A DNA stretch of 64,000 nucleotides from NCBI RefSeq assembly GCF_002287065.1, contig NZ_NSJZ01000005.1, forward strand, positions 1 to 64,000. Direction: 5' to 3'. The notes beneath the pieces are model-generated. The model saw nothing but the letters and a program-made list of their open reading frames with translations, made no database searches and had not been told where the DNA came from. Origin of the DNA: Paracoccus salipaludis (GTDB lineage Bacteria; Pseudomonadota; Alphaproteobacteria; Rhodobacterales; Rhodobacteraceae). Shown in pieces: positions 16,068 to 27,381 of the stretch (position 1 is the stretch's first letter; each line of letters opens with the position of its first letter). Position numbers and translations under genes: made by a program.

Positions 16068-16275
16068 GATACTCCTGTTCGGCTGACCGCTGCGGCCCCG
16101 CGCGGAGCTCGGCCCCTGGCGGGTTCCTTGACGCAGCGGATGGCAGACCTTAGACGGACATCTGGGACGCGCGGCCTGTTTCTGCAAGAAACGGCAGGGC
16201 GGGCTTAGCGCAGGGCGCGAGACGGCGTCAATCTGTCTGGCCCGTCGGGACCGCCCGTCAGGACAGGGGCCGCAG

Positions 16276-25463: not shown

Positions 25464-26360
25464 ATGGACAACCTGCCTTCCCTTGCGGCGCTGCGGGTCT
25501 TCGAGTCGGTGGCCCGGCAGCTGTCCTTCACCGCCGCGGCGCGCGACCTCGGCATGACCCAGGCCGGCGTCAGCTACCAGATCCGGCTGCTGGAGGAACG
25601 CCTCGGCGGCGCCCTGTTCCTGCGCAAGCCGCGCGGGATCGAACTGACCGCGCTGGGCGGACGCCTCGCCGGGCCGACGCGCGAGGCCTTTGACCTGCTG
25701 CGCGCCGCCTATGCGCCGCAGGCGGAAGCCGACTCGCTTTCGATCTCGACCCTGCCCACGATGGCAGGGAACTGGCTTTCACAGCGGCTGGGCCGCTTCC
25801 AGGCGGACAATCCCAACCTGTCCGTGCGGATGGAAGCCTCGGACCACCTGGTCGATTTCGCGCGCGAGGACATCGACGTGGCGATCCGCCTGGGCGAGGG
25901 CGACTGGCCGGGGCTGACGGCGCAGAAGCTGTTCACCGTCGATTTCACGCCCATGCTGTCGCCCGCGCTGATCGCGCAGCACGGCCCGCTGAGCGATCCG
26001 GCGCAGATCGTGCCCCTTCCATGGATCGCGTCGAACGATCCCGGCTGGAACCTCTGGCTTGCAGCGGCCGGGGTCAGCCGCGAATGCTCCTGCCCGCCCC
26101 GGCCGGCCCTGCTGCTGGGCACGCAGATCCACGAGGCCCGGCTGGCCATGGCGGGCAACGGGGTCGCGCTGCTGACCCCGCGGTTCTTCCGCTTCGAACT
26201 GGCGACCGGGGCGCTGGTCCAGCCGTTCCAGACCACCGCGATGGATGGCAAGGCCTATTGGCTGGTCCATCCGCCTGCCCGCCGCAACCGCCCGGCGATC
26301 CGCGCCTTCCGGCGCTTTCTGCTGTCGGAAGTCGCGGCCGACGGCGAGGCGGGCGCCTAG
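25464..26360 (+). CDS. LysR-family transcriptional regulator (GcvA-like)
   Basis: This 298-aa regulator has an N-terminal winged helix-turn-helix (SFTAAARDLGMTQAGVSYQI, then RLLEERLG) and a C-terminal substrate-binding domain beginning about residue 92 (SISTLPTMAGNWLSQRL). The pattern around VDFAREDIDVAIRLGEGDWP is typical of the GcvA subgroup. The effector and targets are unknown. Its TAG stop shares bases with the stop of the convergent bdhA gene. Confidence 0.88.
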   Translation: MDNLPSLAALRVFESVARQLSFTAAARDLGMTQAGVSYQIRLLEERLGGALFLRKPRGIELTALGGRLAGPTREAFDLLRAAYAPQAEADSLSISTLPTMAGNWLSQRLGRFQADNPNLSVRMEASDHLVDFAREDIDVAIRLGEGDWPGLTAQKLFTVDFTPMLSPALIAQHGPLSDPAQIVPLPWIASNDPGWNLWLAAAGVSRECSCPPRPALLLGTQIHEARLAMAGNGVALLTPRFFRFELATGALVQPFQTTAMDGKAYWLVHPPARRNRPAIRAFRRFLLSEVAADGEAGA

Positions 26361-27139
26361 AGCGCCGTCCAGCCCCCGTCGACCGAGATCGTGGTCCCGG
26401 TGATCTGCGCCGCCGCGTCCGAGCACAGGAACACCGTCGTGGCCCCGATCTGGTCCACCGTGGCGAACTGCCCCGAGGGCTGGCGCGCCAGCATGACCTT
26501 GGCGATCACGTCCTCGCGGCTCATGTTATGGGTCTTCATCTGGTCGGGGATCTGCTTTTCCACGATCGGGGTCAGGACGTAGCCCGGGCAGATGGCGTTG
26601 CAGGTGATGTCCTCGGCGGCGGTTTCCAGCGCCGTGACCTTGGTCAGCCCGACGATCCCGTGCTTGGCCGCCACATAGGCCGACTTGAAGGGCGAGGCCG
26701 TCAGCCCGTGCGCCGAGGCGATGTTGACGATCCGGCCCCAGCCCGCCGCCTGCATCATCGGCAGCGCCGCGGCGGTGGTGTGGAAGGCGCTGGACAGGTT
26801 GATCGCGATGATCGCGTCCCATTTTTCCGCCGGGAACTCGGGGATGGGGGCGACATGCTGGATGCCCGCGTTGTTCACGAGGATGTCGCAGTGGCCGGCC
26901 TTCTCGACCAGCGCGCGGCAGTCGGCGGGCTTGCTCATGTCGGCGGGGATGTAACGCACGGCGACGCCATGGTCGCGGGCCAGCCGCTCGGCCAGGGCGT
27001 GATCCTCGGGCGTGTCGGTGAAGCTGTTGATGACCACGTCCGCGCCCGCCGCCGCCAGCGCCTCGGCCACCCCGAGGCCGATCCCGCTGTTCGAGCCGGT
27101 GACCACGGCCCTCCTGCCCGCCAAAGCCCTGTCCGCCAT
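26357..27139 (-). CDS. bdhA: 3-hydroxybutyrate dehydrogenase
   Basis: This 260-aa SDR enzyme interconverts 3-hydroxybutyrate and acetoacetate with NAD, a step in polyhydroxybutyrate use. It has the cofactor motif TGSNSGIGLGVAEAL, NNAGIQHVAPIPEFP, catalytic serine in NIASAHGLTASPFKSAY and YVAAKHG (Tyr-x3-Lys). The sequence AICPGYVLTPIVEKQIPDQ is characteristic of this enzyme. GGAGGAAGG lies upstream of the ATG. It is convergent with the LysR gene; the two stop codons share CTAG. Confidence 0.93.
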   Translation of the reverse strand: MADRALAGRRAVVTGSNSGIGLGVAEALAAAGADVVINSFTDTPEDHALAERLARDHGVAVRYIPADMSKPADCRALVEKAGHCDILVNNAGIQHVAPIPEFPAEKWDAIIAINLSSAFHTTAAALPMMQAAGWGRIVNIASAHGLTASPFKSAYVAAKHGIVGLTKVTALETAAEDITCNAICPGYVLTPIVEKQIPDQMKTHNMSREDVIAKVMLARQPSGQFATVDQIGATTVFLCSDAAAQITGTTISVDGGWTAL

Positions 27140-27270: not shown

Positions 27271-27346
27271 AAAAAAAGACGCCCGCATGAAGCGGGCGCC
27301 AAGTCATGAGGCAGGTTTCATACAGGCAAGAAACCTATCGAGCAGT
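27271..27346 (-). ncRNA. Candidate small regulatory RNA
   Basis: On the minus strand a predicted transcript of about 76 nt starts near 27346. It forms a first hairpin with a perfect 7-bp stem, AGGTTTC/GAAACCT (27313-27336, 10-nt loop), and ends in an ideal terminator (CGCCCGC/GCGGGCG stem, 27280-27298, then seven U residues at 27271-27277). It is divergent from the plus-strand gene and upstream of bdhA, so no annotated gene explains this terminator. The loop of the first hairpin (minus-strand UUGCCUGUAU) could be the pairing region. No family is recognised. Confidence 0.6.
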
Positions 27347-27352
27347 GATTTC

Positions 27353-27381
27353 GATATACGCCCAACACCCTGCCACGCCAA
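27353..27381 (-). promoter_or_regulatory. Promoter of the candidate small RNA
   Basis: TTGGCG (27376-27381) and TATATC (27353-27358) on the minus strand are separated by exactly 17 bp. The same -10 hexamer, TATATC, is found in the proposed gyrB promoter. Confidence 0.45.

Follow-up and report, generated by a model that had tools for sequence, protein, structure and literature searches.

We describe a predicted small RNA (sRNA) whose loop region is complementary to the 5′ leader of the cell-division operon dcw (the dcw leader), upstream of mraZ, in many genomes of the Rhodobacteraceae. The gene lies on the minus strand of a 64,000-nt window, the whole stretch of DNA analysed, from Paracoccus salipaludis (contig NZ_NSJZ01000005.1, positions 1 to 64,000). 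An earlier note had proposed an independent sRNA gene at this place. Sequence conservation, location and compensatory changes give strong support to such a predicted gene at 27271–27347; we are close to certain that a real sRNA gene is present. A conserved complementary relation between the sRNA and the dcw leader is, given the sites compared, highly likely. It is likely, at a slightly lower level, that the sRNA is a family-wide trans-acting RNA that pairs with the UpsM/dcw leader and acts much as StsR does, although it is a different RNA. Regulation of UpsM/dcw is probably its main role. Transcription, pairing in the cell and use of Hfq are predictions, as is any direction of the effect.

So far StsR alone has been named as an RNA that acts upon the dcw leader. 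If a second sRNA targets it through a conserved complementary site, the leader would have a general, family-wide RNA regulator, which may help to control the timing of division in Rhodobacteraceae. The finding also adds a small-RNA family without a gathering-score entry in Rfam release 15.

A predicted sRNA gene and its neighbours

The segment consists, in order, of a short 5′ tail, a hairpin (AGGTTTC, 10 nt, GAAACCT), a linker and a terminator that is rich in G+C and ends in seven T (Table 1). The 76-nt stretch folds with an energy of -28.4 kcal/mol (z = -4.4), which none of 200 shuffles equalled. The terminator detected by our scan has nine pairs, eight of them G-C, around a 5-nt loop, and is followed directly by TTTTTTT. 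Of the five terminator-like sites in the 3 kb scanned, for which shuffles gave 1.6 +/- 1.5 sites, it ranks first both in number of pairs and in length of the T run. The earlier note had described a 7-bp stem followed by seven U; the seven T are present, but the stem has 8–9 bp. The second hairpin, with a perfect 7-bp stem and a 10-nt loop, is as the note claimed, and its predicted length of about 76 nt agrees with the conserved segment, which starts at 27347 (C) or 27346 (A) and thus spans 76–77 nt.

Table 1. Features of the predicted sRNA locus and its neighbours, with positions in the window
Feature	Position	Strand	Basis
Predicted sRNA gene, 77 nt	27271..27347	-	Start from conserved edge and -10 box; end from end of T run
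-35-like box TTGGCG (family consensus CTTGGAC)	27376..27381	-	Sequence reading; similar boxes in relatives
-10-like box TATATC (family consensus TATAaa), 17-nt spacer	27353..27358	-	Sequence reading; similar boxes in relatives
5′ hairpin, 7-bp stem (sRNA nt 12-18 with 29-35), 10-nt loop (nt 19-28)	27313..27336	-	Folding and alignment
Terminator stem-loop	27278..27300	-	Terminator scan and covariation
Seven-T terminal run	27271..27277	-	Sequence reading and terminator scan
sRNA nt 20-39, complementary (19/20) to own-genome dcw leader site	27309..27328	-	Sequence comparison
sRNA nt 3-9 (CUGCUCG), complement of second leader block CGAGCAG, found in 31/37 leaders	27339..27345	-	
Divergent extracellular solute-binding protein (SBP) gene, family 5, 634 aa	27467..29371	+	PF00496; conserved neighbour, unsupported target
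bdhA-like gene (3-hydroxybutyrate dehydrogenase), downstream on same strand	26357..27139	-	TIGR01963 above cut-off; conserved neighbour, unsupported target

The boxes TTGGCG and TATATC, which the note had placed 17 nt apart, are both there, and boxes near CTTGGAC ... TATA occur at the same place and distance in most near relatives; several of the most diverged loci (e.g. L078, L086 and L087; genomes, contigs and loci carry G, C and L numbers) have other boxes. However, a σ70 promoter scan of the sRNA region found 0 promoters, and the boxes alone are therefore weak. As sequence features, a promoter and a Rho-independent terminator of its own mark the sRNA as a stand-alone unit that is predicted to be transcribed separately. 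No tRNA was detected in the window by ARAGORN. A mini-ORF within the hairpin (MKPAS*) was considered and rejected, because the linker that follows shifts by single bases between relatives, as judged by eye.

The neighbouring genes are well conserved. Among 58 oriented loci (up to 3 kb each, from the best matches), the SBP gene is divergent and upstream in 57, bdhA is downstream on the same strand in 51, and both arrangements hold in 50. In 21 further, mostly diverged loci (19 from few-contig or weak-match genomes and two plasmid records), the SBP gene was found in 19 and bdhA in 11; since the sRNA stays where bdhA is missing, it does not need bdhA. The earlier note had suggested these two neighbours as targets, a proposal that did not hold up. 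Duplexes of the sRNA 5′ domain with the start regions were no better than dinucleotide shuffles, with a median z of -0.89 for the SBP gene (57 loci) and -0.49 for bdhA (51 loci), and z fell below -3 in only 6 of the 57 SBP and 2 of the 51 bdhA regions. Both genes were rejected as targets on these grounds.

Distribution and structural conservation

Matches to the sRNA are present in 120 of 121 genomes of the genus with a DNA query, and in 124 of 125 in a larger genus search, where the sole miss (G017) is a genome that is 71% complete. At the family level, 289 of 295 genomes have a match (288 of 294 genera; 258 of 260 good genomes). A draw from the order gave matches in 61 of 61 cases, all of them within the same family. 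We also ran a covariance model of the sRNA over 385 genomes of the class, with stricter filters than in the other searches, and obtained matches at E 0.01 or better in 22. Five of these are genomes of the sRNA's own family, with 98–107 bits; the 17 others scored 30.7 bits or less, and the conserved core is absent from all 18 places matched in them. Given this class sample and these filters, the sRNA looks confined to the family Rhodobacteraceae.

The promoter and 5′ tail were recovered in eight named records, including Paracoccus denitrificans DSM 413, P. versutus DSM 582, P. kondratievae (chromosome 2), P. thiocyanatus and P. lutimaris, and the whole sRNA was read in P. denitrificans DSM 413 (L133). 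In a plasmid collection, four records of large Paracoccus plasmids carry the sRNA (P. pantotrophus, P. versutus twice and P. ferrooxidans); a search of phages gave no match. In several Paracoccus species (L102, L103, L155 and the plasmid records) the sRNA is carried by a large plasmid or second chromosome of 1.46–2.24 Mb and not by the main chromosome.

Structural conservation was assessed in an alignment of 33 of 68 distinct sequences, 15 of them taken among the best matches in the genus and the family, the other 18 among genomes chosen for few contigs or for weak matches. The first ~41 nt of the sRNA are nearly identical letter for letter. In the 5′ helix, 99.6% of cells are paired and six of the seven pairs are invariant. 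The terminator helix has 98.1% of cells paired, with changes on both sides in seven of eight pairs and 38 compensatory cells; its covariation score was reached by none of 500 shuffles and by no slid version. The earlier note had looked to compensatory change in both stems. This is what the terminator stem shows; in the 5′ hairpin, variation is too scarce for a compensation test. One locus, L089 (G346:C18, about 1017-1095, minus), was excluded from the alignment on account of an insertion in its 5′ tail: ~30 extra bases apparently separate the conserved tail from the hairpin. The hairpin, the terminator and both neighbours are kept there despite the insertion.

Complementarity to the dcw leader

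The lead to a target came from recurring minor matches to sRNA nt 20-38 in the genome searches. Eight such places were read out. Six of them (in Rhodobacter sphaeroides, L091, L092, L094, L097 and L101) are antisense to the sRNA and lie upstream of mraZ or its neighbour; the other two (L093 and L096) do not. The P. salipaludis genome has the site AGGCAGGCTTCATACAGGCA at G000:C24, about 16252-16274, where complementarity to sRNA nt 20-39 is broken by a single A-C mismatch. The gene behind this site passes the NCBIfam cut-off for MraZ, as does the R. sphaeroides gene. This complementarity also fits the suggestion of the earlier note that the 10-nt loop could be a seed region.

We searched the family genomes with the pattern CAGGTTTCATACAGGCNCCC, which is the site plus the following CCC, with no more than 2 mismatches allowed; the usual sRNA gene, at 3 differences, falls outside this limit. 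The pattern is present in 198 of 295 genomes and a reversed-pattern control in 1 of 295, as read from the tables. In all 37 leader loci inspected, among the matches listed, similarity to MraZ starts 178–250 nt downstream in the right direction. These 37 loci comprise 30 fetched with the pattern (again among the matches listed), the six earlier places and R. sphaeroides. Since 30 of the 37 are thus a selected set, the island of conservation around the site is partly a product of selection by the pattern. Most leaders (L091, L094 and L291-L320) have a strongly conserved block, GATCCGGCGCGCG...GCGAGCAGACATCCCCCCAGGTGG..., downstream of the site, which is perhaps the R2 hairpin of UpsM.

Thirty of the 97 genomes without the pattern were examined, chosen non-randomly: 12 came from an earlier sample and mostly have weak sRNA matches. 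We located mraZ in 29 of the 30, and in two it was too near a contig edge, leaving 27 to be judged. In seven of these (G150, G156, G159, G166, G181, G185 and G188) a site with <=2 mismatches lies 201–223 nt before mraZ, three (G149, G153 and G173) have a partial site before mraZ, and in 17, including G148 with its diverged sRNA, the site was not found at this stringency. The leader site is therefore widespread, not universal. The sRNA gene itself is exact in the site-pairing segment in 27 of the 30 genomes, the exceptions being G137, G148 and G178. Six family genomes had no sRNA match. Three of them (G252, G285 and G355; 71–90% complete) hold the leader site, and the three others (G152, G266 and G274) have no match to the site pattern; lacking both sRNA and pattern, these last three are uninformative for or against pairing. 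Covariation between sRNA and target is not visible, because the core is nearly invariant. The diverged loci L088 (G137) and L090 (G148) have changes within sRNA nt 19-28, and mraZ of G137 lies at a contig edge. The predicted trans-acting sRNA has, then, a conserved complementary site in a distant transcript.

Pairing energies are consistent with this. Duplexes of the sRNA 5′ domain with the 37 leaders have a median energy of -45.6 kcal/mol and a median z of -4.7 relative to dinucleotide shuffles; with 60 shuffles per leader, one shuffle in one leader was equally good. When internal folding is counted in a cofold, the median gain is -20.2 kcal/mol across the 37 leaders, and in 35 of them the real sRNA lies below all 8 shuffled cores. 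The cofold did not beat its controls in R. sphaeroides (-11.9, best control -20.7) and L091 (-16.6 and -20.0). A second block, CGAGCAG, sits ~35 nt beyond the first site, in a region of the leader that is conserved anyway; its expected frequency is 0.021 per leader, against the 31 of 37 leaders that have it.

The complementary region in R. sphaeroides corresponds to a known RNA. UpsM (RSs0682) is reported to be a 206-nt RNA derived from the 268-nt 5′ UTR of mraZ, to be cut by RNase E to a 130-nt fragment, and to exceed all other sRNAs of R. sphaeroides in abundance (PMC5089854); according to the literature, only Rhodobacteraceae have the long, terminator-bearing dcw leader (PMC5089854, PMC8307010). 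UpsM is described from the same family only, and is the predicted partner of our sRNA; it differs in being a product of the mraZ 5′ UTR, whereas the present sRNA has an independent gene. With an inferred transcript start and a chosen mraZ start, the first site corresponds to UpsM nt 54-71 and the second block to nt 107-113. Subtraction of the published lengths places the RNase E cut near UpsM 76/77.

StsR (RSs0827) of R. sphaeroides is a 72-nt trans-acting sRNA that is reported to bind UpsM and the dcw leader, and to promote RNase E cutting by giving the enzyme access through refolding of UpsM (PMC8307010, PMC11354728). The sRNA predicted here resembles it in being short, trans-acting and complementary to the UpsM/dcw leader; this StsR-like complementarity is present in the 37 leaders inspected, and is weaker in R. 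sphaeroides when internal folding is counted. Gene and sequence are different. The R. sphaeroides copy of our sRNA lies at 1,443,996-1,444,072 (minus) of G170:C4, taken as chromosome 1, beside bdhA and the SBP gene. The StsR probe published in PMC11354728 matches a separate locus, near 858,073 of the same contig, and the sRNA is therefore not StsR. The complement of this probe fits leader nt 14-23, in contrast to nt 54-71 for the present sRNA.

Possible roles and relation to known RNAs

How might the sRNA act? We propose that the Rhodobacteraceae sRNA would be transcribed as a unit of its own, between the promoter and the terminator described above, and act in trans. Its loop region, nt 20-39, would pair with the dcw leader site upstream of mraZ, and a further contact may form between its 5′ tail (nt 3-9) and the second leader block. 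The two pairing sites would flank the RNase E cut that turns the 206-nt UpsM into the 130-nt fragment, and pairing would refold part of the leader. This would alter how RNase E cuts there, how much UpsM is present or how often transcription reads through into mraZ. We infer that the sRNA would grip the same structural unit of UpsM as StsR, from the other side. It may either promote or block UpsM cutting, or may itself be held by UpsM. The two pairing sites leave most of sRNA nt 10-19 unexplained.

A broader reading is that the sRNA is the ancestral, family-wide partner of the dcw leader, two-handed across the RNase E site, and balances UpsM, its cleavage and the whole division operon, with StsR acting beside it under stress. 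We put this forward tentatively, as something that is possible and on balance doubtful. If true, it would explain why the sRNA sequence is nearly frozen, and why both the sRNA and the long dcw leader appear to be restricted to Rhodobacteraceae.

A wider search in R. sphaeroides provides some context for other targets. For windows at the starts of 1625 genes, roughly called by a GC-frame method in 2.0 Mb, energies for three segments of the sRNA were within the shuffled spread. Exact complements in the same windows were near the shuffle mean for 8- to 10-mers, numbered 3 for 11-mers (0.5 +/- 0.9 in shuffles) and 0 for 12-mers. An exact 10-base complement of the sRNA loop lies just before R. sphaeroides prrB/regB, upstream of L166:5905. 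As a target it was rejected, since none of 28 other relatives keeps such a run (with R. sphaeroides, 29 of the 30 loci fetched were inspected; the longest run was 7); L279 reaches a similar prrB/regB energy through other pairs. Two further complements were observed, both upstream of genes named by eye. A 12-nt exact complement of sRNA nt 18-29 lies ~140 nt before a carA-like gene (G170:C4, about 473,943, minus; L184) and is a possible second target, and a 12-mer complement lies upstream of an acyl-CoA-dehydrogenase-like gene in R. sphaeroides.

An alternative explanation for the conserved complementarity is that the direction is reversed: UpsM would be a sponge that holds the sRNA, whose true targets would be other mRNAs bound through the same loop. 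UpsM is reported to make up ~60% of the Hfq-bound sRNA in R. sphaeroides (PMC5089854). A sponge would also accommodate the other 12-nt complements, such as that upstream of the carA-like gene, and an sRNA 5′ domain conserved beyond the need of the UpsM site alone. Nonetheless, we consider it unlikely, since no second conserved target emerged among the few tested, the prrB/regB site being confined to R. sphaeroides among the relatives inspected, and since the start-codon windows in 2.0 Mb have no clear excess of complementarity. It is more improbable still that the main targets are elsewhere, or that the sRNA binds a protein, and that the dcw complementarity reflects one DNA or RNA element, such as a binding site for a protein, that both places share and read in opposite directions. 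The near-invariance of the 5′ hairpin is as expected for protein binding or for several partners, and pairing of sRNA and leader in the cell is a prediction. However, the match is antisense, covers the sRNA loop and is positioned about 180–250 nt before mraZ; moreover, the R. sphaeroides site falls inside the transcribed leader, and the two blocks are in antiparallel order.

The remaining alternatives deny that there is a separate RNA. The frequent position of bdhA downstream on the same strand would suit a cis-acting bdhA leader or attenuator, but a strong terminator separates the sRNA from bdhA, the sRNA stays in diverged loci where bdhA was not found, and there is no pairing with bdhA starts; we give this explanation very little credence. 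That there is no gene at all, and that a chance terminator has met chance boxes, is scarcely credible: the promoter boxes alone are indeed poor σ70 matches, yet sequence, terminator structure, boxes and gene order are all conserved in relatives. We therefore favour a trans-acting sRNA that would pair with the UpsM/dcw leader.

Could the sRNA belong to a known family? No match reached an Rfam gathering score in the window with cmscan, nor in five loci. The best sub-threshold match by bits is RF00519 (suhB; 26.4 against a gathering score of 41). Members of this family, alpha-r8/MmgR/SisA, resemble our sRNA as alphaproteobacterial sRNAs of ~77 nt with a 5′ hairpin and a terminator, and MmgR is reported to be tied to PHB (PMC7143759), which may be set beside the bdhA neighbour of the present sRNA. 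In contrast, the alpha-r8 core, described as the single-stranded 10-mer UUUCCUCCCU (PMC12559287), occurs in none of the 33 aligned sRNA sequences. The neighbours here are the SBP gene and bdhA; a place next to an N-formylglutamate amidohydrolase gene counts among the traits of alpha-r8/MmgR. Membership was rejected given the score below gathering and the lack of the UUUCCUCCCU core. RSs2778/UdsE, considered for its expected position on chromosome 1, was also rejected: by its number it belongs beside katE (RSP_2779), and the 20 kb around the R. sphaeroides copy contain bdhA, SBP, tsf-like and RND-pump-like genes, with no catalase gene by eye.

In the main text of the papers searched, the core words of the sRNA are not printed, and no name for it was found in R. 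sphaeroides surveys. Within the passages on StsR and UpsM that we compared, pairing of UpsM with an sRNA of this sequence is undescribed. Earlier surveys may already list the sRNA as a numbered transcript, for instance in P. denitrificans, where Intergenic 60 and Intergenic 134 (PMC5107571) are both candidates for it.
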